From the IMG/VR virus record IMGVR_UViG_3300048823_000351, positions 1-38,804 of that record: 38,804 bases of DNA. One strand, written 5' to 3'. Positions 18,878 through 34,493 of the stretch are shown piece by piece (positions within the stretch are counted from its first letter, which is position 1; each line of letters starts with the position of its first letter). The notes beneath the pieces are model-generated. The model was not told the DNA's origin, made no database searches, and saw only the letters and a program-made list of their open reading frames with translations. This DNA is from a virus. Both the position numbers and the translations under genes were made by a program.

Positions 18878-20371
18878 ATGCAGGTTGTCACTTCAGGTTG
18901 TCACCCCTGCAGTGAGCCGCTTGGCCAGCCGCCAGCTTGGATTTCTTTGACTTACGGCAGCGTATGTTCGGGCATTGAGGCGGTGACCGTGGCTTGGAAG
19001 CCGCTGGGCTTCCGGCCGGCATGGTTTGCCGAGATCGACTCGTTTTGCTCCGCGCTGCTGGCGCACCGCTACCCGGACGTTCCCAACCTTGGCAACTTCA
19101 CGACGATCAAAGGAAGCTGCGCTCCAATCGACGTTCTGGCCGGAGGAACTCCCTGCCAGTCCTTCTCCCTCGCCGGAAGACGTGGCGGCCTGGAGGATGC
19201 GCGTGGCAACCTGGCCATCGAGTTTTGCCGGCTTGCTGGCCGACTGCGGCCTCGGTGGATCGTCTGGGAAAACGTCCCCGGTGTCCTGTCCTCGAACGGC
19301 GGGCGGGACTTTGGCTCCATCGTCGGGGCGCTGGCGAAACTCGGGTATGGTTGCGCCTGGCGAGTGCTGGACGCTCAGTTCCTCGGAGTGCCCCAGCGAC
19401 GCCGTCGCGTCTTCGTTGTCGGACATCTTGGAGACTGGCGACGTGCCGCGGCGGTACTTCTTGAGCGCGAAGGCCTGTGCCGGGATACTCCGGCGCGCCG
19501 CAAAACGCGCCAGGAAGTTGCCGCCCTTACTGCGGATGGCGTTGGAACATGTGGCGCGGATGACAACCAGGCCCAGGCCGGCCACCTGATTCCATTCGGG
19601 GGCAACAACACATCGGGGTCGATCGACGTGGCGACCGCGTGCAATGCCCACGGCGGCAGCATGCGGATGGATTTCGAGACGGAAACGTTTTGCGTCGAGG
19701 TTGCGCATACGCTCCGAGGCGAAGGGATGGATGCCAGCGAGGACGGAAGCGGCCGTGGCGTCCCGATTGTACCGGTCGGGTTCTCGTGCAAGGACGGTGG
19801 ATCCGACGCACTCGAAGACCTTGCGCCGACCATGCGGGCGATGGGCCATCGGTGCTCCCATCCAAATGCCGGCGGGCAGATCGCAGTCGCATTCCGGGGA
19901 TTCGGGCAGGACGGATTCGCGCCAAGTGAGATCGCGCCACCGGTACTCGCCAGCGATGGCGGTTCGGTGGGCCCGCCAGTGGTTTTCGAATCCCGTTTTG
20001 CGCGGAACGGGCGCGGCGCTCCCGATATCGTTGCGCCCCCGCTGAAAGCGCAGTCTGGCGGGTCTGGGCGCGGCGACGGTGCGCCGCTGCTGGTTACGTG
20101 GGTTGCGGTCCGAAGGCTCACGGCGCGCGAGTGCGAGCGTCTCCAGGGACTGCCGGACGATTACACGCTGCTCCCCCACTACCGGCGAAGGCTTCGCGTG
20201 GATGAGATCGCTGAAATGGCCGCTTACCTCGGCATCCCGCTCGAGGAAGCGCGGAGAGTGGGCGTGACGCCGGATGGCCCACGTTACAAGGCCATCGGGA
20301 ATTCGATGGCAGTGCCCGTGATGCGGTGGATCGGAAGGCGAATTCAGGTAGTGGATGGAATCCGTGGCTGA
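18878..20371 (+). CDS. C5-cytosine DNA methyltransferase
   Basis: The enzyme transfers a methyl group from S-adenosylmethionine to C5 of cytosine. From ATG 18878 it has 497 residues; a TTG at 18947 just before LTYGSVCSGIE may be the better start, because no ribosome-binding site precedes 18878. Motif I YGSVCSGIEAV (about 26-35), motif IV GGTPCQSFS with Cys93, motif VI WENVPG (131-133) and motif VIII GVPQRRRR (about 171-177) are complete. Motifs IX-X appear as LTARECERLQGLPDDY and YKAIGNSMAVPV. The variable target-recognition region (about 200-400) has repeating Gly/Asp-rich phrases. It is the first of three methyltransferases and likely shields phage DNA from host restriction. No matching endonuclease is present. 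Confidence 0.92.
   Translation: MQVVTSGCHPCSEPLGQPPAWISLTYGSVCSGIEAVTVAWKPLGFRPAWFAEIDSFCSALLAHRYPDVPNLGNFTTIKGSCAPIDVLAGGTPCQSFSLAGRRGGLEDARGNLAIEFCRLAGRLRPRWIVWENVPGVLSSNGGRDFGSIVGALAKLGYGCAWRVLDAQFLGVPQRRRRVFVVGHLGDWRRAAAVLLEREGLCRDTPARRKTRQEVAALTADGVGTCGADDNQAQAGHLIPFGGNNTSGSIDVATACNAHGGSMRMDFETETFCVEVAHTLRGEGMDASEDGSGRGVPIVPVGFSCKDGGSDALEDLAPTMRAMGHRCSHPNAGGQIAVAFRGFGQDGFAPSEIAPPVLASDGGSVGPPVVFESRFARNGRGAPDIVAPPLKAQSGGSGRGDGAPLLVTWVAVRRLTARECERLQGLPDDYTLLPHYRRRLRVDEIAEMAAYLGIPLEEARRVGVTPDGPRYKAIGNSMAVPVMRWIGRRIQVVDGIRG
18881..18904 (+). repeat. Tandem direct repeat CAGGTTGTCAC
   Basis: Two copies of CAGGTTGTCAC, 13 bp apart (18881-18891 and 18894-18904), lie at the very start of the methyltransferase ORF. 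If the real start is TTG 18947, these would be upstream non-coding sites, for example for autoregulation by the enzyme. They contain a GTCAC half-site like the arms of the paired palindromes at 5337-5456. Confidence 0.35.
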
Positions 20372-21932
20372 GAGCCGTGTCCCGCCTGCCATGGCGCGGC
20401 GAATCGAACTGTGGCCCGTTGAGCGGCTGGTGCCATACGCCAGGAATGCGCGGACGCATTCCGACGATCAGATTGCCCAGATTGCGGCGAGCATCGTGGA
20501 GTTCGGGTTCAACAATCCGGTCCTGGTGGACACCAACGCCGGCATCATCGCTGGCCACGGTCGCCTGTTGGCCGCGCGGAAGTTGCGGCTGGAACGCGTG
20601 CCAGTGGTCGTGCTCGATCACCTCAGCGAGACGCAGAAGCGTGCGTACATACTCGCGGACAACCGGATCAGTGAGAACGCCGGGTGGGACGAAGATACGC
20701 TGGCGGCGGAACTCGGGGAACTGCAAGCCGCCGATTGGCGGCTCGATCTGCTGGGCTTCTCCGAGGAGGAACTGGCCAAGCTCCTGGCCGATGCCGAACC
20801 TGCGGCAGAGTCGGCTGGCGCGGCGGAAGAAGAAATCCCCGAGACGCCGGTTGAGCCGGTAACGCGGGCCGGAGACGTCTGGTTGATCGGAAAGCACCGG
20901 CTGATCTGCGGGGACTGCCGCGATCATGGGACGCGCACGCGACTGTTCGACGGGCACAAGGCGAACGTAGTGATTACGTCGCCGCCGTACGCCACGCAGC
21001 GCGAGTATGACCCATCCAGCGGCTTCAAGCCGGTGCCGCCGGAAGAGTACGTGGAATGGTTCCGCGCGGTGGCCAGCGGCGTCGAGTCAGTCCTGGCGCC
21101 GGACGGTTCCTACTTCCTGAACATCAAGGCGCACGCCGATGAGGGCGAGCGAAATCTCTACGTGATGGATCTGGTGCTGGCGCACCGGCGGCAGTGGGGC
21201 TGGCGCTTTGTCGACGAATTCTGCTGGCGCAAAACCGACAACGGTGTGCCGGGCGGTTGGGGAAATCGATTCAAGAACGCGTTCGAGCCCATCTACCATT
21301 TCTGCCGGCAGCAGCAGATCAAGTTCCGGCCCAAGGCGGTCGGTCACGAGTCGGATGACTGCTTCGATTACAACCCGAACAACCCGAAATCGACTTCCGG
21401 CAGTGGCTTGCTGGGCACGGGGCCGCGTGGAGCAGCAGCCGATGGCGGGAAGAACCAGAGCGCCTGGCAGCGGAGCCGGAGCAGCCTGTCCGATGATTCC
21501 GAAGGCCGCCACGCCGGTGTCGCGCGGCCTTCCAACGTCATTGAGGTCCGCACCGAGTCCGGTCAGGGATCGCACTCCGCTCCGTTCCCACGCCCGCTCG
21601 TCGAGTTCTTCCTGCTGGCATTCAGCGATGCTGGCGACGTGGTGTTCGATCCGTTCATGGGGTCCGGAACCACGATGGCCGCTGCGGCGTTGTTGGAACG
21701 CGTTGGCTATGGCTGTGAAATCAGCCCCGCTTACTGCGACGTGATCCTGCGCCGAATCATGAACCTGACAGGTGAGACGGCGATGCTCGCGGAAACGAGA
21801 GAGACATTCGCTGCGGCCGCAGAGTCGCGCGGCGTGCCCGTCGACCAGGCTTTGAACCCGAAGCAACAGGACTCGCGGGCCATCAAACATCGCGGCCCGA
21901 ATCCGTTCTACGGACCTAAGAAGCCATCCTGA
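20355..21932 (+). CDS. ParB-domain / DNA methyltransferase fusion (SPPY type)
   Basis: A 525-residue two-domain protein overlapping the C5 enzyme by 17 bp. Residues about 18-110 are a ParB-like domain (VERLVPYARNARTH, IIAGHGRLLAARKL, ILADNRI). The beta-class methyltransferase domain follows: motif IV TSPPY at 208-212 and motif I-type DPFMGSGTT near 432-440, with the CEISPAYCDVILRR tail. SPPY is usual for N4-cytosine and some N6-adenine enzymes, so it probably makes N4-methylcytosine or N6-methyladenine. A long insertion (Gly/Ser-rich, about 360-395) may be target-recognition. The ParB part may guide the enzyme to DNA. It is clearly paralogous to the gene at 22821 over its N-terminal half. Confidence 0.88.
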   Translation: MESVAESRVPPAMARRIELWPVERLVPYARNARTHSDDQIAQIAASIVEFGFNNPVLVDTNAGIIAGHGRLLAARKLRLERVPVVVLDHLSETQKRAYILADNRISENAGWDEDTLAAELGELQAADWRLDLLGFSEEELAKLLADAEPAAESAGAAEEEIPETPVEPVTRAGDVWLIGKHRLICGDCRDHGTRTRLFDGHKANVVITSPPYATQREYDPSSGFKPVPPEEYVEWFRAVASGVESVLAPDGSYFLNIKAHADEGERNLYVMDLVLAHRRQWGWRFVDEFCWRKTDNGVPGGWGNRFKNAFEPIYHFCRQQQIKFRPKAVGHESDDCFDYNPNNPKSTSGSGLLGTGPRGAAADGGKNQSAWQRSRSSLSDDSEGRHAGVARPSNVIEVRTESGQGSHSAPFPRPLVEFFLLAFSDAGDVVFDPFMGSGTTMAAAALLERVGYGCEISPAYCDVILRRIMNLTGETAMLAETRETFAAAAESRGVPVDQALNPKQQDSRAIKHRGPNPFYGPKKPS

Positions 21933-22008
21933 CCTCATTTCTTTGAGCGGCCCGGCGATCCGGGCTGCATGACCCAAACGCAACTCCAACCGAAAGGACT
22001 TTTCCCGT

Positions 22009-22524
22009 ATGGCCGAAACCAATCCCAATCTCTCTCCGTGCGTCACCCACCAGCCGAGTTTGCTGGGCGGTGCCGAAAACATCAAGCTGCTCTTCGATGA
22101 AGAGCTCGACAACCGGCGCGAAACCCTGGCGCGGCAGCGCGCCTGGGAAGCAGTCTCGCTGGACTTGGCGCAGACCGCCAGCCGGCGCGCGCAGAACGCG
22201 GCGACCATCGACCACGCCATCAACGCCGGCATCGTGTTGTCCGGCCAGGTCGGCACGACCGAGGGCCAGCAAACGGTATCGCCCGCCGGCACGGCGGCCA
22301 GCGAGACCACCAAGGGTGCCGTCGCCGCCGCCGGAGCTGGCGAAGCGGTTAGCGCCGAGGCCGTCACCGCCAACGTCGCGAACCTGTTCACGTCGCTGAC
22401 GCCGGTGATCGCGAGCGCTTTGGCCGCCGCCATCTCGCAGACCATCGCGGCCCTCGTGCCGGTGGTGGTGACCGCATCCGGAGGGGCGTCGACCCCTTCC
22501 CAGACGCAGGCCAAGGCCGCGTAG
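22009..22524 (+). CDS. Unknown Ala-rich protein with hydrophobic C-terminus
   Basis: This 171-residue protein starts at ATG 22009 after an AAAGGA site. The first half is charged and helical (LLFDEELDNRRETLARQRAW), the middle is Ala/Gly/Thr-rich, and the C-terminal part has one or two hydrophobic stretches (NLFTSLTPVIASALAAAI and TIAALVPVVVTAS) that could enter a membrane. It might be a structural or membrane-active phage protein; I cannot assign it. It is inserted with the next small gene between the two paralogous methyltransferases. Confidence 0.6.
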   Translation: MAETNPNLSPCVTHQPSLLGGAENIKLLFDEELDNRRETLARQRAWEAVSLDLAQTASRRAQNAATIDHAINAGIVLSGQVGTTEGQQTVSPAGTAASETTKGAVAAAGAGEAVSAEAVTANVANLFTSLTPVIASALAAAISQTIAALVPVVVTASGGASTPSQTQAKAA

Positions 22525-22544
22525 ATCTCCCCATACGGGAGATC
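22524..22544 (+). terminator. Hairpin after the Ala-rich protein gene
   Basis: An 8-bp perfect stem GATCTCCC / GGGAGATC with a 5-base loop begins at the stop codon. There is no T-run directly after it, but about 50 bases further the sequence AGGCC...GGCCTTTTC could form a second weak terminator-like structure. It may partly stop transcription or stabilise the upstream mRNA. Confidence 0.35.
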
Positions 22545-22625
22545 CCTACCGGGGGCGGTCGCGGACGCTTCGGCTCCGAGGCCGCCTCCAAGGGCCTTTT
22601 CGTGTGGACCAGAAAGGATAAGACG

Positions 22626-22808
22626 ATGAACTTTTTGCAAATCATTCAAACGATTCTCAGCGTGGCTCCCTCCGGCATTCAGTTGACGCAGGAGGTGGTC
22701 GCGCTCGTGCAGGCCATCGAAGCCGCTTTCACCGCCGGCCAGACTCCGGCGACTCACCAGCAGGCCGTGGCGTCGGCTCTCGGCGCCCACCTTGCCAAGA
22801 CCGCGTAA
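22626..22808 (+). CDS. Small 60-residue hydrophobic/helical protein
   Basis: The ATG at 22626 follows AAAGGA at 22613-22618 by 7 bases. The product (MNFLQIIQTILSVAPSG then QLTQEVVALVQAIEAAF) is helical and amphipathic, with a mildly hydrophobic N-terminus rather than a clear membrane span. The 24 bp upstream in frame (to 22602) is not needed. No known family; its location next to the Ala-rich protein suggests a related role. Confidence 0.6.
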   Translation: MNFLQIIQTILSVAPSGIQLTQEVVALVQAIEAAFTAGQTPATHQQAVASALGAHLAKTA

Positions 22809-22820
22809 CTCCCCACCAAA

Positions 22821-24152
22821 ATGAAGACCGCGCAAGATACGACCACGAGTCAGGAAAGTTCCGTGACGCCCGAGCGTGTCTTGCGCGATCTTCTCGTGGA
22901 GCGCTGGCAGGTCGACCGCCTGATTCCCTACATCCGCAATGCGAGGACGCATTCGGAGGAGCAGGTCGCGCAAGTCGCCGCCAGCATCGTCGAGTTCGGG
23001 TGGACGAATCCAATCCTGGTCGGCGCGGACGGAGTGATCATCGCGGGTCACGCGCGCCTGCTGGCCGCCCGCAAACTCCGGATGACCGAAGTCCCGGTCA
23101 TCGTCCTCGATCACCTCTCCGAAACACAGCGCCGCGCGCTGATCATCGCAGACAATCGTCTGGCAATGAATGCCGGTTGGGACGAGGAGATGCTGCGGGT
23201 CGAGTTGGAGTCGCTCCAGGTGGACGGCTTCAATCTGGACATCGTCGGCTTCAGCGATGAGGAAATTGAAGCATTGCTCCAGGAGCCGGAAGAGGCCCGC
23301 GCCGGGAACACCGACGACGATGCGGTCCCGGAGACGCCCGAGAGTGCGGTCACCGTCCCCGGCGACGTCTGGATTCTGGGTGAGCACCGCCTGCTCTGCG
23401 GCGACAGCACGCAGATGGAATCGGTGGAGAAGCTGCTTGCCGGTGGCCTTGCCGACATGGTCTTCACCGATCCGCCGTACAACGTGAACTACGGCGCGAC
23501 GATGAAGGACAAGCTCCGCAAGAAGAATCGCAAGATCGCCAACGACAATCTGGGCGATGGCTTCGAGCAGTTCCTGCGGGACTCCTGCACGAACCTGTTG
23601 GCGGTGACCAAGGGCGCGATCTACATCTGCATGTCGTCTTCGGAGATCCACACGCTGCAGCGGGTGTTCCGCGAGGCGGGAGGGCACTGGTCCACATTCA
23701 TCGTGTGGGCGAAGAACACCTTCACGATGGGGCGTTCCGATTACCAGCGTCAGTACGAACCGATCCTCTATGGGTGGAAGGAAGGCACGGATCACTTCTG
23801 GTGCGGCGCCCGCGATCAGGGCGACGTTTGGTTCATCAAGAAGCCTTCGGTGAACGATCTGCACCCGACCATGAAGCCTGTGGAACTGGTGGAGCGCGCC
23901 ATCAGGAATAGCAGCAAAGGCCGCGACACCGTGCTCGATCCGTTCGGCGGCTCTGGCACCACCCTGATCGCTTGCGAAAAGTCCGGCCGCCAGGCGCGGG
24001 TCATTGAGTTGGACCCGAAGTACTGCGACGTGATCGTCATCAGGTGGCAGGAGTTCACCGGGAAGCAGGCGCGGCACGCAGAGAACGGGCGCGCGTTTGC
24101 AGACACGCGCAAATCAAGTGAGGAGGATGAATGCCAACCCCTGGAATCATAG
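22821..24152 (+). CDS. ParB-domain / N6-adenine DNA methyltransferase fusion (DPPY type)
   Basis: The 443-residue protein has the same layout as the gene at 20355. Residues about 28-125 are ParB-like (VDRLIPYIRNARTH, IIAGHARLLAARKL, LIIADNRLAMNAGWDEE), and the methyltransferase domain carries DPPY at 217-220 and DPFGGSGTT near 373-381, followed by VIELDPKYCDVIVIRW. DPPY with this order is typical of beta-class N6-adenine enzymes. Compared with its paralogue, motif IV changed from SPPY to DPPY, so the base modified is likely different. It ends in an overlap with a small membrane-protein gene. It probably adds another layer of restriction protection. Confidence 0.9.
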   Translation: MKTAQDTTTSQESSVTPERVLRDLLVERWQVDRLIPYIRNARTHSEEQVAQVAASIVEFGWTNPILVGADGVIIAGHARLLAARKLRMTEVPVIVLDHLSETQRRALIIADNRLAMNAGWDEEMLRVELESLQVDGFNLDIVGFSDEEIEALLQEPEEARAGNTDDDAVPETPESAVTVPGDVWILGEHRLLCGDSTQMESVEKLLAGGLADMVFTDPPYNVNYGATMKDKLRKKNRKIANDNLGDGFEQFLRDSCTNLLAVTKGAIYICMSSSEIHTLQRVFREAGGHWSTFIVWAKNTFTMGRSDYQRQYEPILYGWKEGTDHFWCGARDQGDVWFIKKPSVNDLHPTMKPVELVERAIRNSSKGRDTVLDPFGGSGTTLIACEKSGRQARVIELDPKYCDVIVIRWQEFTGKQARHAENGRAFADTRKSSEEDECQPLES

Positions 24153-26156: not shown

Positions 26157-26693
26157 ATGGCGATGATGGGCATTTCTCTTCGGGCCTACGCGCGGATGCG
26201 CGGGTGCAGTCTGCCCGCCGTGCAGAAAGCCATCGCCAGCAAGCGCATCACGACGCTGCCCGACGGGAGCATCGATCCGGAGCGCGCCAACCAGGAATGG
26301 GCCAAGAACACCTTCGCCGGCCAGACGGTCAATCGAGCGGCGGCCGCAGCACCGAAGGAACGCGTTTCCCCGATGCCCGAACCGCCAGCCGCAACGGGCG
26401 ATCCGGTTGCTCAATACCTGCGCGCGCGAGCGGTCAAAACGAGTTTCGAAGCGCGAACGGCGCAGTTGGAATACGAGGAGCGTGCCGGCAAGCTGATCCA
26501 GGCGGTGCGCGCATCGGAGTATGCCGCGAGTTTCTCGGCCATCGTGAAAGACCACCTCCAGGCGCGTGCCGACCGTTTGGCGCCCATGCTGGCCGCCGTC
26601 AACGACGAGAAGGCCATCCATCGGCTATTGAAAAACGACGATGAGGCGGTGCTGCGCAAGGTGAGCAAAGCCATCGCGGACGCTGGTTTGTAA
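26157..26693 (+). CDS. Terminase small subunit (Nu1-like)
   Basis: The 178-residue protein starts at ATG 26157 (no strong ribosome-binding site). Residues about 4-30 (GISLRAYARMRGCSLPAVQKAI) are a helix-turn-helix as in the Nu1 group, followed by ASKRITTLPDGSIDPERANQEW, a usual feature of these proteins, and a Pro/Ala-rich linker. The rest is helical (AQLEYEERAGKLIQAVRASEY), for oligomerisation and contact with the large subunit. It recognises the packaging site on phage DNA. It lies immediately before the large subunit, confirming its role. Confidence 0.82.
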   Translation: MAMMGISLRAYARMRGCSLPAVQKAIASKRITTLPDGSIDPERANQEWAKNTFAGQTVNRAAAAAPKERVSPMPEPPAATGDPVAQYLRARAVKTSFEARTAQLEYEERAGKLIQAVRASEYAASFSAIVKDHLQARADRLAPMLAAVNDEKAIHRLLKNDDEAVLRKVSKAIADAGL

Positions 26694-26694
26694 C

Positions 26695-28590
26695 ATGCAG
26701 CCGTTCTCCATCCATGAGGTTGGTGCCGCGGCGATGCTGCCGCCTCGCGACATTACTGTTTCGCAGTGGGCGGATGAGAACCGCGTGCTGACCGGCGGCG
26801 CGGCGGCCGAACGGGGCCAGTGGCGCACCCGATCCTACCAGCGGGAGCCGATGGACGTGCTCAGTCCCAGTCATCCCTGCCGCCAAGTCGTGGTGCTATC
26901 GGGAGCGCAGATCCTCAAGACGGAAGTGCTCCTCAACTTCATCGGCTTCATCGCCGATGTGGATCCGGGACCGGTGCTGGTGGTGGAGCCGCGCACCGAG
27001 GATGCCAAGGCCCTCTCGAAAGACCGCGTGGCGCCCATGTTCCGCGCGACGCCGGCACTCCGTGGGAAGATCGCGCCCGTCAAGTCGCGCGATTCGAGCA
27101 ACACCACACTGCACAAGGTTCTCGCCAATGGCGCAGGGCAGATCACGCTGACCGGGGCGATCTCGCCCTCGGGCCTGGCCATGCGGCCGATCCGCTATGC
27201 GCTGCTGGATGAGGTGGACCGCTACCCGGCGAGCGCGGGCACGGAGGGCGACCCGGTATCGCTGGCTATTCAGCGCACCGCGGAGTTCGCCCACAACAAG
27301 AAGATCGTCATGGCATCCACGCCAACGATCAAGGGTGTCAGCCGCATCGAGTTGGCGTGGCGTGAGAGCGACCAGCGCGATTACTTCGTGCCCTGCCCGC
27401 AGTGCGGGTGCTTCCAGGTGCTCACGTTCGGCGATGGCACGGGGCCGGGCGTGGTGTGGCCGGAGGGGAAGCCAGAAGACGCCGCGTATCGCTGCGCCGA
27501 GTGTCGCGAACTGATTCCTCACCGCTTGAAAGCCGAGATGGTGGAGCGCGGCGAATACCGCGCGGCAAACCCGTCCTCGCCGATTCCCGGCTTTCGCGTC
27601 TCGCAATTGATCTCGCCAAAGAAGTCGTGGGGCGAGATTGCCGTGGAGTTCCTGGCGGCGAAGAAGTCGCCGGAGACGCTCAAAGCATTTCTGAACACCG
27701 TGCTCGCCGAACTGTGGGAGGAGACCCACGAAGTAGCGACGGACGCTCACGCGTTGTGGAATCGCTGCGAGCCTTTCGAAGCTGAAGCACCGGACGGGGT
27801 GGCGCTGATTACGGCAGGCGTCGACGTGCAGGCCGACCGGTTGGAGATGGAAATCGCCGGATGGGGACGAGATGAAGAATCCTGGTCGATTGCCTACCAT
27901 GTGATTCCAGGCGATGTAACCCGCAACGAGGTATGGGAGCACTTGGAAGGCCTGCTGCTCTCCGAGTACCTGCATGCGTCCGGGCTGCCGATGCGGATCG
28001 TTGCGACGTGCATCGACTGCGGGTTTAAGGATGCCACCGTGCTGCATTTCACGCGCGACCGCTACAACCGGCGTGTCTACGCCACCAAGGGACGCGCGGG
28101 CGAGTCGCCGATCTGGCCGCGCAAGCCGAGCCGGAAGAACCAGACGCCATTCTTCATGATCGGTGTGGATGCGGCGAAGACAGCGATTTATGACCGGCTG
28201 AAGCTCCGGGATGTGGGGCCGGGCTATTGCCACTTCCCGATCGGGCGGGACCTTGAGTACTTCGAGCAGTTGACCGCCGAGAGAAAGTTCACGCGGTACC
28301 ACAACGGGTTTCCGAAGCAGGAATGGCGGAAGCCGGCCAACGCCCGCAACGAAGGCTTGGACGCCCGGGTCCTCGCGTACGCGGCGCTGCACGCACTGTA
28401 CGCGAGCGGTTTGAAACTGCCGGTGCATTGTGACCGCTTCGCGCGGATGGTGCAGACACGCCGAGGAGAGACGCCGTCGAACATTGCGGTGGTGACAACG
28501 CCGGCCAACACCGAGCGGCCGGCCCCGCCTCCCGCTGAGCGCGGGGACGACCCATGGATACCGCGCCGCAACTGGTTCGGAAGGAATTGA
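26695..28590 (+). CDS. Terminase large subunit, GpA family
   Basis: A 631-residue packaging motor begins at ATG 26695, one base after the small subunit's stop codon. The ATPase domain shows an unusual Walker A, SGAQILKTE (Lys75), where the usual Gly before Lys is Leu, and a Walker B YALLDEVDR. A zinc-ribbon with CPQCG (about 237-241) and CAEC follows, a feature of the GpA group. The nuclease part starts at AGVDVQADRLEMEI (Asp in VDV), with TCIDCGFKD and the closing GLDARVLAYAALHA. The enzyme cuts concatemeric DNA and drives it into the prohead. The Gly-to-Leu change occurs in some GpA relatives, but function should be checked. Confidence 0.94.
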   Translation: MQPFSIHEVGAAAMLPPRDITVSQWADENRVLTGGAAAERGQWRTRSYQREPMDVLSPSHPCRQVVVLSGAQILKTEVLLNFIGFIADVDPGPVLVVEPRTEDAKALSKDRVAPMFRATPALRGKIAPVKSRDSSNTTLHKVLANGAGQITLTGAISPSGLAMRPIRYALLDEVDRYPASAGTEGDPVSLAIQRTAEFAHNKKIVMASTPTIKGVSRIELAWRESDQRDYFVPCPQCGCFQVLTFGDGTGPGVVWPEGKPEDAAYRCAECRELIPHRLKAEMVERGEYRAANPSSPIPGFRVSQLISPKKSWGEIAVEFLAAKKSPETLKAFLNTVLAELWEETHEVATDAHALWNRCEPFEAEAPDGVALITAGVDVQADRLEMEIAGWGRDEESWSIAYHVIPGDVTRNEVWEHLEGLLLSEYLHASGLPMRIVATCIDCGFKDATVLHFTRDRYNRRVYATKGRAGESPIWPRKPSRKNQTPFFMIGVDAAKTAIYDRLKLRDVGPGYCHFPIGRDLEYFEQLTAERKFTRYHNGFPKQEWRKPANARNEGLDARVLAYAALHALYASGLKLPVHCDRFARMVQTRRGETPSNIAVVTTPANTERPAPPPAERGDDPWIPRRNWFGRN

Positions 28591-28591
28591 T

Positions 28592-28846
28592 ATGGCCCTG
28601 ACCGTTCAGCAATTGCAATCGAACCTGGACGCCGTCAACCAGGCGCTCGGGAATCCCACCTTGAAAGTGCGGTTCCCGGATGGGCGCGAGGTAACGTATC
28701 GCTCCGTGGACGATCTGCGTAAGGCGAAGGCCGAGATTGAAGAGGACATCCGGCGGGCCAGCGGGCAGACCGGGAGCCGGGTCCGGTTCGCGCAGCACCA
28801 GCGCGGCGACGGTCCCACTGGCCCAACGCTGGACGACAGATGGTAA
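28592..28846 (+). CDS. gpW-like head-tail joining protein
   Basis: An 84-residue protein between terminase and portal is the usual position of lambda gpW. Its sequence (VQQLQSNLDAVNQAL, then LKVRFPDGREVTYRSVDDLRKAKAEIEEDI) has the helix-beta-helix layout of gpW/DUF-type joiners, with a disordered tail. It would plug the portal after packaging. Confidence 0.8.
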   Translation: MALTVQQLQSNLDAVNQALGNPTLKVRFPDGREVTYRSVDDLRKAKAEIEEDIRRASGQTGSRVRFAQHQRGDGPTGPTLDDRW

Positions 28847-28850
28847 CGGA

Positions 28851-30539
28851 ATGAATCTTCTCGATAAGGCCATCAGCATCGTGGCGCCGCGCGTCGCGTT
28901 GCAGCGTGTGCGCAGTCGCGTGGCGCTCGAATTGACCACGGGCTACCTGGAGCGGCACGCGCAGCGGTTCCGCTACGAAGGCGCCACCGCTGGCCGCCGC
29001 GCCCACGGCTGGTACGCCGCCTCGACCGACGCCAACGTCGAGCTGATGGGGTCGCTCATCTGGCTTCGCAACCGCAGCCGCGATCTCATCCGCAACAATC
29101 CCTATGCGGCGCGCGCGGTGGAGGAACTCGCCGGGAATGTGGTTGGGACCGGGATCGTGCCCAAGGCCAAGACCGGCAACACGGCCATCGACAAGATCAT
29201 TGACGCTGAGTGGCCGTTCTTCGCCGACAGCTGCGACACGCCGCAGCGCCTCGATTTCCATGGCATGCAGACGTTGACCGTCCGCACCATGGCGGAATCG
29301 GGAGAAGCCATTGTCCGTTTCCGGCCGCGGCCTGCGGACGCCGGCCTGCGTATTCCGCTTCAGCTTCAGATGCTCGAAGCCGATTTCCTCGATCAGGCCC
29401 ACACGATGGGGCTGGTCAACGGCCATGTGATGGAGGGCGTGCAGTTCGACGAAATGGGACGCCGCGTCGCGTACTGGCTGTTCAGCTATCACCCCGGCGG
29501 CGTCCTGATCCTAAACCCGCGCGGGGGCATTGTGAGCCAGCCGGTTCCGGCCGACCAGATCATGCACGTTTACCGCGTGCTCCGGCCTGGCCAGGTTCGC
29601 GGCGTGCCGTGGCTCGCGCCGGTGATGATGGCGCTCCGGGATCTCGACGATTACTGCGACGCGGAGCGCGTGCGTAAGAAGGTGGAAGCCTGTGTCACGG
29701 CGTTCGTGCAACAACCGGAGGGTGTCGATGGCGATCCGCTGGGCATCGCGGGAACCGATCCATCCAGTGGGATCCCGGTCGAGAGCTTCCAGCCCGGCAT
29801 GGTCGAGTATCTGAAGCCTGGCCAGGACATCAAGTTCAACAATCCGCCGCCTGCGGGCGGGTACCGCGAATACAAGATGACCGAGTTGCAAGGGATCATG
29901 GCTGGCATTGGCTTGCCCTACGAACTCGGGACCGGCGACATGTCGCAGGTGAACTACTCTTCCTGGCGCGGCGGCATGTTGGGGTTTCGCAACACCGTGG
30001 AAGCTTTTCGCTGGCTTACCCTGATTCCGTTATTCGCGATGCCTGTGTGGCGGCGGTTCATCGACACGCTGATTATGCAGGGCAAGATTCCGAAATCCGC
30101 GGCCAACGACCCGAATATCGGACTGCGCAGTGTGCAGTGGACCGCACCACGGTTCGAATCGGTGGATCCGGTGAAGGACGCAGAGGGCGTATTGAAAGAT
30201 GTCCGCATGGGCCGCAAGACCTGGTTCGAGGCCGTGCTGGAGAACGGCTACGACCCTCCCACCCAGCTTCAGCAGATTGCACTGTTTAACAAGCTGGTGG
30301 ACAAATTCGAAATCATCCTGGACTCGGACCCGCGCAACACGACGCTCCGCGGCCAGGAGCAGCCGGCGGCAACGGAGGAGCGAACCCCGAGTAGCAAAGC
30401 GGCACCCACCAAGTCCAAGGGCCAGGGATTCGCGGCGCTCTCGGAAGAGGACCTGGGCATGGTCAAGGATCTACTCGTCGCCGGCATGTCGCGCGCCGGC
30501 AGCGGTTTCGAATCGGCCCCACGGCTTTACCGCGGCTAA
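28851..30539 (+). CDS. Phage portal protein, lambda gpB type
   Basis: The 562-residue protein starts at ATG 28851 with AACGGA just before it. It matches the lambda portal family: RDLIRNNPYAARAVEELAGNVVGTGI near the N-terminus, PLQLQMLEADFLD, then GVQFDEMGRRVAYWLF, VPADQIMHVYRVLRPGQVRGVPWLAPVM, and RGGMLGFRNTVEAFRW in the wing/crown region. The last about 60 residues are Ser/Lys-rich and disordered. Twelve copies form the ring through which DNA enters. Its neighbours, terminase upstream and protease/capsid downstream, are as expected except for the ferritin-like gene in between. Confidence 0.95.
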   Translation: MNLLDKAISIVAPRVALQRVRSRVALELTTGYLERHAQRFRYEGATAGRRAHGWYAASTDANVELMGSLIWLRNRSRDLIRNNPYAARAVEELAGNVVGTGIVPKAKTGNTAIDKIIDAEWPFFADSCDTPQRLDFHGMQTLTVRTMAESGEAIVRFRPRPADAGLRIPLQLQMLEADFLDQAHTMGLVNGHVMEGVQFDEMGRRVAYWLFSYHPGGVLILNPRGGIVSQPVPADQIMHVYRVLRPGQVRGVPWLAPVMMALRDLDDYCDAERVRKKVEACVTAFVQQPEGVDGDPLGIAGTDPSSGIPVESFQPGMVEYLKPGQDIKFNNPPPAGGYREYKMTELQGIMAGIGLPYELGTGDMSQVNYSSWRGGMLGFRNTVEAFRWLTLIPLFAMPVWRRFIDTLIMQGKIPKSAANDPNIGLRSVQWTAPRFESVDPVKDAEGVLKDVRMGRKTWFEAVLENGYDPPTQLQQIALFNKLVDKFEIILDSDPRNTTLRGQEQPAATEERTPSSKAAPTKSKGQGFAALSEEDLGMVKDLLVAGMSRAGSGFESAPRLYRG

Positions 30540-30562
30540 CTCAACCACAAGGAAGGACGTTT

Positions 30563-31051
30563 ATGAAAGGGAACCCACAGGTAATCGCTGGGCTTCAAGA
30601 GGCCGCCGACATGGAGGGATCCATGATGCTTCAGTATCTTCTCGATCAGCGGGACGTGAAGCGCCTGGGCCTGGATCTGGCCGATGGCCTGAAGCAGATG
30701 AAGGAGCAGTGCGAGGATCACATGAAGTGCCTGGTGAGCCGCGTGCTGTTCCTCGAAGGCGCGCCCACGATTGAGCTGAAGCCCGCCGCGACCCACGACA
30801 GCGTCACCGAGATTCTGAACGATGCCTTTGCCGCCGAGCAGGCTGCCATCGCGCGGTTCACCGATCTCTGCAAACAGTGCTACGACGCCGGCGATATGTC
30901 GAACTTCCACTTCTACCAGCACCTGGTGAAGTGGCATCGCGAGGGTGACGACAAGTTCAAGGGTCATGTCGCGTGGCTGCAGAAGCAACTCTACCAGTTG
31001 AAGAAGCTGGGTGAAAACGACTACATCGCCGTCAGCGCGGTGAAGGATTAG
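30563..31051 (+). CDS. Bacterioferritin-like protein with altered iron site
   Basis: This 162-residue protein aligns by eye with bacterioferritin over its whole length: MKGNPQVIAGLQEA at the start, E18 and QY (24-25) in helix A, VLFLEGAP after helix B, a Glu at 92 in helix C, GH at 134-135, and the LKKLGENDYI end. Compared with E. coli bacterioferritin, E18, H54 (here H53), E94 (here E92) and H130 (here H135) are kept, while E51 becomes Cys (or shifts register to E51), E127 becomes Phe, and the haem ligand M52 is Glu. The ferroxidase centre therefore looks damaged or changed. It lies between portal and protease-capsid genes with small gaps, so it is a real part of the late operon. It may be a structural reuse of the fold. 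Confidence 0.85.
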   Translation: MKGNPQVIAGLQEAADMEGSMMLQYLLDQRDVKRLGLDLADGLKQMKEQCEDHMKCLVSRVLFLEGAPTIELKPAATHDSVTEILNDAFAAEQAAIARFTDLCKQCYDAGDMSNFHFYQHLVKWHREGDDKFKGHVAWLQKQLYQLKKLGENDYIAVSAVKD

Positions 31052-31059
31052 GAGGCACG

Positions 31060-33300
31060 ATGCCGCTTCTACGAACCGAAATACCCCCTGCGAGTACCGG
31101 CGCGCTGCCTACGCAGCATGACGCCGAGATCTTCTCCGCCGACGCGCAGGTGCTGCCGAGTACCGCCAACGCCAAGGACGGCACCATCGATGTGGTCTGG
31201 TACAGCGGGGCCGCCGTCCCGAGGGTTGACCGCGCGACAGGCGAACCCTACATGCTCCAGCTCGACATGCAGGGCTGCCGCTTCGACCGGCTGAACAACG
31301 GCGCGCCGGTGTTCGACACCCATTTCACCGGGGACGATTTCAAGTCCCTCATGGCGGGCAAGGTCGGCACGCGGGCCCAGTTGGGCGTTGTGCGCCGCGC
31401 CTGGCCCAATGGCGATAAGGGCATGGCCACGCTGCAATTCGACCTGGGCGATCCGGATGGCGCCGAGATGTTCCGCAAAGCCAGTGCCGGCATCCTGCAA
31501 AACCTCAGCTTCGGAACCTTCGTGTACAAACGCGAAAAGGTGGATGCGCAGACCGAGGGAATGCCGGAGGGCAAACCGCCCTACCTGAACGACAAGGAAA
31601 TTGGCATGTTCAAGGCCACCGACTGGGAGCCGTTCGAGATTTCACCTTGCACGGTGCCGGCCGATTTCAATACGTGCTTTCTGAGCGCACAACCGAACGA
31701 TTCAGTACGGGCAATCAGCCCACAAAAGGAGAAACCTGCAATGGAACAGACGACCACGCAGGACACGGGCGCGGATGCCCGTACTGTGAACGAACAGGCC
31801 CTGGCCGCAGCGCGGGAAGAGGCGGTCCAGGCCGAACGGGAGCGCGTCAGCGAAATCCAATCGCTGGGTGCGACCGCAACCAAATACGGAATCGACGAGA
31901 CCGTCATCAGTGAGTTCATCGCCAAAGGCGTGCCCGTCGATCAGGCGCGGAAGGAGCTGTTTGCCCACCTCGCGACCAAGGGCCAGCAGGGAGTCCCGCC
32001 GCGCGCGGGCGCAGACGGCCCGGCATTCCCGATTCGCGGGGAGGGCGGCACTTCGGTAACCCGCGACGGCATGGAACAGCGCCTTGCCTGCATGCAGATG
32101 GCTCTGCTGCTGCGCGCGGATGGCCGGTTCTTCCTGGCGCGGCGCCGGGACCATAACGGCAACGAAACCGGCGAATATCTCGATGGCTACGGTCCCGAGC
32201 AGCAGCGGCGCGCCGTCGAGATGGCCCGCGAGTACCGCAATTTCAAGCTCATCGACATGGCGAAGGAAGCCCTGGAACTGCGCGGCACCAACCCGCGCGG
32301 GATGGACGTGACGCGAATTGCGGAACTGGCGCTCCAGGGATCCTCGCGGGGACGGGAGTTCTTCGCGGGCGGCGCCGAATCGACCGCGGACTTCCCGGCG
32401 ATCCTGGCCAACGTCGCAAACAAGACTTTGCGCCAGGGGTATGAAGCCTATCCACGCACCTTCCAGCCCTTCTGCCGGCAGGTGACGGCGCAGGACTTCA
32501 AGCCCATCAACCGTGTGATGCTCGCCGATGCGCCCGTCCTGCAGGCGCTGAATGAGAAGGGCGAGTATCACCGCGCCAACCTGACCGACAACAACATCAA
32601 CTACGCGCTCGGCACCTACGGCGAGATCGTGGCGTTGACGCGCAAGGTCATCATCAATGACGACCTGCAGGCGTTCACCCGCGTCCCGGCACTGCTCGGC
32701 GTGGCGGCAGCGCAGCTCGAATCGAACACCGTCTGGGGCATCATCACGTCGAATCCGGCTGCGGTGTACGCGGGCGACAAGAACTCCACCGCGCTCTTCC
32801 ACGCCAATCACGCCAATCTGCTGACCGGCGTGGCCAGCGCCATCGATTCCACCGTTGCCAACTCCGCTCCGCTCACCGCGCTGGGCAAGGGGCGCGGCGC
32901 GATGCGGCTGCAGAAGGGACCGCAGGGCACTCCGCTGAATCTCATTCCGCGGTTCATTGCCGTGCCGACGGCGCTGGAGACTTACATGCTCCAGCTCGTG
33001 TACCCGATCAACATCGCTTCGGCGGACGCGACGAAGGTCGTGCCGGAGTGGGTGCGCAGCCTGGTCCCGGTGGTCGAGCCGCGTCTCGATGCCGCCACCA
33101 ATGGGACCACGGGCTGGTATCTGATCGCGGACCCGGCACAGATCGACACCGTGGAGTACTGCTACCTGGAAGGGCAGCAGGGCGTGTACATCGAGACCAA
33201 GCAGGGCTTCGAAGTGGATGGCGTCGAGATCAAGGCGCGCATGGACTTCGGCGCGGCGGCTCTCGACTATCGCGGGCTTCAAAAGAACGCCGGCCAGTAG
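31060..33300 (+). CDS. Prohead protease-major capsid fusion protein
   Basis: The 746-residue product combines two usual neighbours. Residues 1-220 are a U35-type prohead protease with His88 in VFDTHFTGD and Ser150 in NLSFGTFVYKRE. Residues about 228-310 are a charged, helical scaffold/delta-like region (EQALAAAREEAVQAERERVSE, shown as a coiled coil). Residues about 400-746 form the capsid domain, with the typical ending of Mu/HK97-like coats (GYEAYPRTFQPFCRQ, then ALFHANHANL and EWVRSLVPVVEPRL). The protease would cut the scaffold region during maturation. An internal ribosome-binding site at the junction may also produce scaffold-capsid alone. Confidence 0.9.
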   Translation: MPLLRTEIPPASTGALPTQHDAEIFSADAQVLPSTANAKDGTIDVVWYSGAAVPRVDRATGEPYMLQLDMQGCRFDRLNNGAPVFDTHFTGDDFKSLMAGKVGTRAQLGVVRRAWPNGDKGMATLQFDLGDPDGAEMFRKASAGILQNLSFGTFVYKREKVDAQTEGMPEGKPPYLNDKEIGMFKATDWEPFEISPCTVPADFNTCFLSAQPNDSVRAISPQKEKPAMEQTTTQDTGADARTVNEQALAAAREEAVQAERERVSEIQSLGATATKYGIDETVISEFIAKGVPVDQARKELFAHLATKGQQGVPPRAGADGPAFPIRGEGGTSVTRDGMEQRLACMQMALLLRADGRFFLARRRDHNGNETGEYLDGYGPEQQRRAVEMAREYRNFKLIDMAKEALELRGTNPRGMDVTRIAELALQGSSRGREFFAGGAESTADFPAILANVANKTLRQGYEAYPRTFQPFCRQVTAQDFKPINRVMLADAPVLQALNEKGEYHRANLTDNNINYALGTYGEIVALTRKVIINDDLQAFTRVPALLGVAAAQLESNTVWGIITSNPAAVYAGDKNSTALFHANHANLLTGVASAIDSTVANSAPLTALGKGRGAMRLQKGPQGTPLNLIPRFIAVPTALETYMLQLVYPINIASADATKVVPEWVRSLVPVVEPRLDAATNGTTGWYLIADPAQIDTVEYCYLEGQQGVYIETKQGFEVDGVEIKARMDFGAAALDYRGLQKNAGQ
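31725..31743 (+). promoter_or_regulatory. Internal ribosome-binding site and in-frame ATG
   Basis: Inside the protease-capsid gene, AAAGGAG (31725-31731) lies 9 bases before an in-frame ATG (31741), which is Met228, exactly where the protease part ends and the scaffold/capsid part begins. It would yield a 519-residue protease-free product, similar in idea to lambda C/Nu3 nested genes. Confidence 0.65.
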
Positions 33301-33334: not shown

Positions 33335-34129
33335 ATGCAGAATTACGTTCAAAAAGGTCAAACCCTTACGGTTGTCGCGCCCTACGCGCTGCTCAGCGGC
33401 GGCGGTTGCCAGGTCGGCAACATCTTCGGCGTGACGGTCAACAGCCAGAACATAGGCGACTCCAGCGAGTTGGTGGTGGAGGGCGTGTTCGATCTGGCGA
33501 AAGATGCGAGCACGTTCAACCCCGGAGACAAAGTCTTCTGGAACAACACCGCCTTGCAGGCCACGTCCAGCCCGTTGACGGCGGCCGGGGGTTCGAACAA
33601 GGAGATCGGCTACGCGGTGCTCAGCCAGGCGAGCGGCGTGAATGCGCCGGGCGGCCTGGCCGGCGATGCGACCGTTCGCGTGCGGCTCAATCCGCTCGGC
33701 TTCGGTCCGGTGCAGGCGGCGGACACTGACCCGTCGCTCATTCAGAAAACCGTGGTGACGCTCACTGCGGCGCAGATCATGGCCATGTTCGGAGCGGCGG
33801 TCAGCATCTTGCCTGCGCCCGCGGCCGGACAGGTGCTCGTGGTCGACCAGTTCATCGTGCAGATGAAGCCCGGCGGCACGCAGTTCACCGGCGGCGGTGC
33901 GGTATCGTTCCAGTATCACGGCACCGGCGTGGTGCCGCACTCGTCCACCATCCCTGCGGCTACCATCACCAGCGCGGCCGCGAGCGAGAACGTGGTGCCA
34001 CCGCCCACGGGCGTCATCCAGCCGCCGTCGGCGACCGGCATCGATATCGTCAACGCCACGGGCGCCTTCGCCACCGGCAACGGCACCATGGTCGTGACCG
34101 TGTTCTACTCCATCATCACGCTCAACTAA
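33335..34129 (+). CDS. DUF2190 capsid decoration protein with extra C-terminal domain
   Basis: The first about 115 residues have the DUF2190 pattern (YVQKGQTLTVVAPYAL, GNIFGVTV, VEGVFDLAKDA, NPGDKVFWNN). DUF2190 proteins are capsid cement or decoration proteins. The protein continues to 264 residues with a second Ala/Pro/Val-rich domain (QVLVVDQFIVQM, then TGIDIVNATGAF) that is longer than the plain DUF2190. It may be a beta-sandwich extension exposed on the capsid. ATG 33335 is preceded by AGGAGAA. It directly follows the capsid gene. Confidence 0.8.
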   Translation: MQNYVQKGQTLTVVAPYALLSGGGCQVGNIFGVTVNSQNIGDSSELVVEGVFDLAKDASTFNPGDKVFWNNTALQATSSPLTAAGGSNKEIGYAVLSQASGVNAPGGLAGDATVRVRLNPLGFGPVQAADTDPSLIQKTVVTLTAAQIMAMFGAAVSILPAPAAGQVLVVDQFIVQMKPGGTQFTGGGAVSFQYHGTGVVPHSSTIPAATITSAAASENVVPPPTGVIQPPSATGIDIVNATGAFATGNGTMVVTVFYSIITLN

Positions 34130-34151: not shown

Positions 34152-34493
34152 ATGTCCGACTGGCCCACCATCGACGCGGCGGCGAACGCGGTCATGCTGC
34201 AGACTTTCGGCGAGCCGGTGGTGTATCAATCCGCACATGCTGGCGTGGCGGTTGGCGATCCGGTGACTATCACCGCCATCCGCCACGCACGCGTGCGCGA
34301 GGAGTCCGGCGCACTGGCGAACATCGAGGAAATCTCCGTCAATCCCTCCGACCTCGCGAACTTCCCTCAGCGCGGCGATTGGGTGACCGCTTGGGGATCG
34401 CAGTTTGTTGTGACCACCGTGCGCCAGCCGGACCCGTACGGCTTGGTCGAGCTTTCGCTGATGGGGCGGGCCGGGCAGAATTCCGATGACTAA
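34152..34493 (+). CDS. Head-tail joining protein, gpFII-like
   Basis: A 113-residue protein after the decoration gene has the features of the lambda gpFII-like joiner group: helix at the N-terminus, then a strand-rich body (VVYQSAHAGVAVGDPVTITAI, QFVVTTVRQPDPYGLVELSL). It would connect the head to the tail. It overlaps the next gene by 8 bp. The upstream gap (34130-34151) is AT-rich (TATATATG) and holds its weak ribosome-binding site. Confidence 0.7.
   Translation: MSDWPTIDAAANAVMLQTFGEPVVYQSAHAGVAVGDPVTITAIRHARVREESGALANIEEISVNPSDLANFPQRGDWVTAWGSQFVVTTVRQPDPYGLVELSLMGRAGQNSDD

Follow-up and report, generated by a model that had tools for sequence, protein, structure and literature searches.

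The gene at positions 30,563 to 31,051 of the viral DNA analysed here (the whole stretch of 38,804 nucleotides is hereafter referred to as the window) appears to belong to a dedicated phage family descended from bacterioferritin (Bfr), in which the five-helix ferritin fold would have been retained. We consider, with a probability of about 0.5, that members of this family are accessory proteins that the virion head contains or that assemble together with it. This reading is based on the presence of the gene in the same slot in two head types, the proximity of an ejection gene in a further context, the loss of the ferroxidase site and the behavior of the gene as an accessory gene. The source of the window is a soil bacteriophage, probably of Acidobacteriota.

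Location of the ferritin-like gene

An earlier note on this DNA had described a full-length Bfr homologue embedded in the head operon. The annotation of the window confirms this description, with a portal gene upstream and a protease-capsid fusion gene downstream. The features concerned are as follows:

464-2116: integrase, invertase (serine) type
26157..26693, + strand: terminase small subunit (phrog_57)
26695..28590, + strand: terminase large subunit, GpA type (Pfam and PHROGs matches)
28592..28846, + strand: gpW-like head-tail adaptor (phrog_2545)
28737..30539, + strand: lambda-family portal protein (PF05136), the real start probably lying downstream, at about 28850
30545..30562, + strand: RBS-like region (aaggaagga) of the ferritin-like gene, identified from the sequence, within the 23 nt that separate this gene from the portal stop
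30563..31051, + strand: ferritin-fold (bacterioferritin-derived) phage protein, 162 aa, ATG start (ORF call, profile matches and predicted fold)
31049..31059, + strand: stop codon of the ferritin-like gene merging into the RBS (ggagg) of the downstream protease-capsid gene, a tight coupling read from the sequence
31060..33300, + strand: prohead protease/major capsid protein fusion (NF045541, PF25209), with its ATG at 31060
33335..34129, + strand: head decoration/cement protein (PF09956, phrog_122)
34152..34493, + strand: head-tail attachment protein (PF05354)

Given its serine-type integrase, the window phage is probably temperate, and it probably also has DNA modification. Three DNA methyltransferase-like genes, two of them with ParB-like N-termini, are located at positions 18878-24152.

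Homology and predicted fold

Profile searches with the ferritin-like protein covered Pfam, PHROGs and NCBIfam. The window protein matched Pfam Ferritin (PF00210) with 42.1 bits (E 1e-10), above the gathering cut-off of 24.5, and the NCBIfam bfr model (TIGR00754) over its full length with 42.4 bits, below the equivalog cut-off of 125.55; no matching family was found in PHROGs. A sequence search of the PDB returned 33 entries at E≤1e-3, bacterioferritins nearly throughout. The AlphaFold2 monomer model (pLDDT 88.5) predicted a five-helix Bfr fold, which could be aligned with Bfr structures over 155 residues (Z 21.9, 1.6 Å); VIA-align served solely to reorder the Foldseek matches. The viral fold library (BFVD) contained nothing at E≤1e-3 for this protein, yielding weak Dps-like rows only. 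Two of these weak rows, A0A6J7WIS1 and A0A6J7WPK9, are named “Prohead protease” (uncultured Caudovirales), and may be fusions of a ferritin-like domain to a head protease; such fusions, if true, would favor packaging.

Distribution, phylogeny and host

A first scan identified 74 distinct viral contigs with a ferritin-like gene, and later scans added members of 31–47% identity, giving a family of 75 distinct phage proteins, each of at least 140 aa. The gene order was portal, ferritin-like, protease-capsid in every main-group contig long enough to show it. The co-occurrence with portal and capsid in other phages that the earlier note had proposed to look for was thus found across many contigs, and the gene is not an isolated occurrence in this one genome. 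No match to the window protein was obtained by tblastn among cultured phages (INPHARED), and an INPHARED search with a divergent member, L189, retrieved annotated bacterioferritins or unannotated records. One of these matches, H47, was rejected as a family member because it is a Bfr of the cellular type, with Glu51, Met52 and Glu127 present and the HxxxxH motif absent. No publication describing a ferritin-like head-operon family was found in the part of the literature covered.

In the phylogenetic tree, the phage proteins formed a single clade, set apart from 21 cellular Bfrs by a fully supported branch, this separating branch being long and the cellular sample consisting mostly of acidobacterial Bfr. 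Recent capture from the sampled hosts was rejected, since the host Bfrs cluster separately from the phage proteins. An identical copy of the ferritin-like gene was present on a contig binned to a Bryobacterales metagenome-assembled genome (MAG). In an Acidobacteria MAG, a decayed prophage remnant (L088:9180-10760) is surrounded by ordinary chromosomal genes, and contains the end of the adaptor gene, residues 47–162 of the ferritin-like protein and the start of the capsid gene. On the basis of these two MAGs, the host group of the phages carrying the gene is probably Acidobacteriota. A common prophage of the phylum was rejected as an explanation, because the gene was present in only one of 396 genomes of the phylum to which the Bryobacterales MAG belongs, namely that MAG itself; a second match among these genomes (E 1e-15) clusters with cellular Bfr.

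Residues of the di-iron and haem sites

In E. coli Bfr, the two irons are bridged by Glu51 and Glu127, their terminal ligands are Glu18/His54 and Glu94/His130, and Met52 binds haem. These positions were compared between the 75 distinct phage proteins and the 21 cellular Bfrs, all of which, E. coli Bfr included, keep every ligand. The window protein retains E18, H53 (=H54), E92 (=E94) and H135 (=H130), in agreement with the four of six di-iron ligands counted in the earlier note. The replacements reported there, one Glu by Cys, another by Phe and the haem Met by Glu, correspond to E51→C50, E127→F132 and M52→E51, the pairing of E127 with F132 hinging on the placement of a 5-residue insertion in helix D. 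From the alignment, the invariant H125, rather than F132, may be the real positional equivalent of Glu127: it directly precedes the variable-length insertion and, when the alignment is anchored on the left, may occupy the place of Glu127.

Glu51 was kept in none of the 75 phage proteins, as against all 21 cellular Bfrs, and the same was true of the haem Met in the phage set (0/75). Glu127, also present in 21/21 cellular Bfrs, was nearly never kept in the phage proteins, the L189 type possibly being an exception. The Glu51 position was occupied by Cys in 68 phage proteins and by Ser or Ala in the other seven. The terminal ligands were retained more widely: E18 in 70/75, H54 in 60/75, E94 in 74/75 and H130 in 72/75, the losses being to Leu in four proteins (E18), to Tyr, Asp, Ala or Phe in 15 (H54) and to Cys in one (E94), with H130 lost in three. 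Two histidines of helix D, H120 and H125 (window numbering), were present in all 75 phage proteins, at positions at which the 21 cellular Bfrs have another residue or a gap. Given the loss of Glu51, of the haem Met and, nearly always, of Glu127, the window protein most likely lacks the function of a canonical ferroxidase or of a haem-type Bfr. The residue pattern is compatible with a possible metal site in this family, whether changed, retained or new.

Selection and gene turnover

In close pairs, dN/dS was about 0.055 for the ferritin-like gene, with lower values for the portal (0.033) and capsid (0.029) genes, indicating purifying selection; this, together with the many relatives, argues against the window ORF being due to chance. 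The gene was nevertheless absent from 27 contigs whose portals are ≥66% identical and which also have a capsid match. Among the relatives lacking the gene are L095 and L098, with portal/capsid identities of 91/88% and 83/85%, respectively. Contigs L109 and L073 have near-identical flanks, but the whole ferritin-like ORF is absent from L109. The RBS-start sequences at the two edges of the ORF resemble each other, and the difference reads as a clean loss or gain of the gene. In related cultured phages, the protease-capsid gene directly follows the portal gene, with nothing between them. The ferritin-like gene is evidently dispensable, as judged from the genomes of these close relatives, and a scaffold role is therefore unlikely. 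The scaffold protein envisaged in the earlier note, or any essential head protein, was rejected accordingly: such a gene should always be present, and relatives with 83–91% identical portals and 85–88% identical capsids do without it.

Capsid ORFs starting with ferritin-like N-terminal codons were observed at L103:3691-3760, L107:2558-2600 and L093:4097-4120. In these three contigs, the first 7 to 13 ferritin-like codons are fused to the protease-capsid gene, an arrangement that looks like the scar of a deletion, through which the capsid protein would have acquired a new N-terminus. The versions of the ferritin-like protein in L240, L097 and L133 are only 41–45% identical to those of their relatives, despite portal and capsid identities of 80–93%. 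A gap of several hundred bases separates a divergent ferritin-like gene from the capsid match at L135:6675-7188 and L190:6471-6938.

Other genomic contexts

Contig L212, together with L211, carries a member about 60% identical to others in an HK97-type module, with a PF04860 portal gene on one side and, on the other, a ClpP-type protease gene and then a PF05065 capsid gene; the start of this member overlaps the portal stop by 4 nt. No tblastn match was found between the portal and capsid of L212 and those of the window. The most divergent member, L198, also has a predicted ferritin fold (pLDDT 91.8, Z 23.3) and matches PF00210 with 32.7 bits. Its gene lies on a single contig (L198/L276), in the order phrog_598 DNA-ejection gene, two large genes, ferritin-like gene and a gene for a 761-aa protein, with a phrog_578 head-closure gene upstream; the two large genes (539 and 591 aa) matched no family. 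By analogy, this order looks like a P22-like podovirus ejection cassette, on the basis of gene order and two family matches on one contig.

Possible functions of the ferritin-like protein

The same slot is occupied family-wide, but the iron-oxidising site has been dismantled, suggesting that the fold was probably co-opted for a role in the virion. The ferritin-like protein would be translated together with the late head genes and would most likely be an accessory protein, carried in the virion head or assembled with it, probably close to the portal inside the capsid, from where it might enter the host along with the DNA. Presence in the particle is inferred from the gene neighborhood, and portal association, ejection and any later role are likewise inferred. 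Several observations count against a place in the virion. Conservation of the slot within one head lineage is partly a matter of common descent, and there are only three independent contexts; late expression and position are not proof of incorporation into virions; and the four terminal ligands, which are mostly kept, would be superfluous in a purely structural protein. A more elaborate version, in which a phage-specific ferritin-fold family with a rebuilt His-rich site in helix D is packaged inside the capsid near the portal in phages of two or more unrelated head types, perhaps including a podovirus, is delivered with the DNA and influences the early response of the host by handling metal or binding proteins, is put forward tentatively and is, as a whole, rather doubtful.

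The mostly conserved terminal ligands, the Cys at the Glu51 position and the two new invariant His residues would also suit an altered but working metal or redox protein, with mononuclear iron, zinc or peroxide chemistry at Cys50 or the new His, protecting DNA or host metabolism as an auxiliary metabolic gene placed in a late operon; published accounts describe viral Bfr, Dps and Mn-catalase as auxiliary genes or as stress genes (PMC10904782, PMC8008677). However, every original ligand is missing from some member, the Cys is replaced by Ser or Ala in seven, and tight linkage to head and ejection genes is atypical of metabolic genes, rendering this explanation unlikely. The interpretation given in the earlier note is partly supported. 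The changed metal or redox protein suggested there is possible in view of the terminal ligands and the new His, but at the bridging positions Glu51 and, with few exceptions, Glu127 are lost. Purifying selection is strong, and the slot between portal and protease-capsid recurs in two unrelated module types, as would be expected of a head assembly or decoration factor, with the ferritin fold aiding portal/capsid assembly or stabilising the shell from outside. We nevertheless regard such a factor as improbable, as L095 and L098 lack the gene, its absence from L109 relative to L073 is clean, and the window already has a gene for a separate cement protein (33335-34129). Presence/absence, deletion scars and swaps of variants of 41% identity between head modules 88–93% identical form the pattern of a locally selected accessory gene, which might act in host interaction (counter-defence, superinfection exclusion or similar) outside the particle, its place in the head operon serving late expression only. 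That account leaves unexplained why the slot is always beside the portal/protease, or beside the ejection gene in L198, and its probability is likewise low.

If the favored reading of a virion-associated accessory protein is true, a housekeeping iron-storage fold has been turned into a non-ferroxidase protein of the phage head operon. The family has a recognizable signature (H120 and H125, no Glu51) and many members, but no PHROG family, and it cautions against labelling such phage genes as iron-storage auxiliary metabolic genes. Presence of the protein in the virion would connect the ferritin fold with ejection or with what the head contains, and would make the question of ferritins in particles testable.

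Comparison with known ferritin-like and ejection proteins

Proteins of the ferritin superfamily have been reported in phages before. The Dps and Mn-catalase proteins of Gratiaviridae and Lactobacillus phages have been described as stress enzymes, and the Lactobacillus phage genes adjoin DNA-metabolism genes (PMC8008677, PMC6669764). The window protein belongs to the same superfamily, but is Bfr-derived, ferroxidase-degenerate and encoded in a head operon. A virus-encoded Bfr has been reported as a functional, host-derived auxiliary metabolic gene (PMC10904782); the window likewise has a Bfr gene on a viral contig, but its catalytic site is degenerate and its family phage-specific. Closer to the virion, the gp217 “ferritin” of a Vi01-like phage is a Phyre2 prediction at 22% identity found by virion mass spectrometry, is encoded, together with a tail-completion gene, in a putative operon, and has been considered in the context of the Ferrojan horse idea, with no TonB/FeoB dependence seen (PMC10892097). 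Both are predicted ferritin-like phage proteins, gp217 having been detected in virions. Host Bfr peptides were present in purified AXL1 virions (PMC9206674), implying that Bfr cages can co-purify with phage particles. The minor head/ejection proteins of the P22 gp7/20/16 type, which are needed for infectivity (PMC8954989, PMC8402733), resemble the family in the gene neighborhood of L198 and in likely late expression, but no sequence or fold relation to them was seen, and the ferritin-like gene is dispensable.

With Bfr itself (TIGR00754), the window protein shares full-length homology, the five-helix fold, the MKG...V start, the LFLEGxP loop, Tyr25 and the C-terminal E helix. It differs from Bfr in being only about 25–30% identical and below the bfr cut-off, in its location in a phage head operon, in its insertion in helix D and the two invariant histidines there, H120 and H125, and in belonging to a separate clade.
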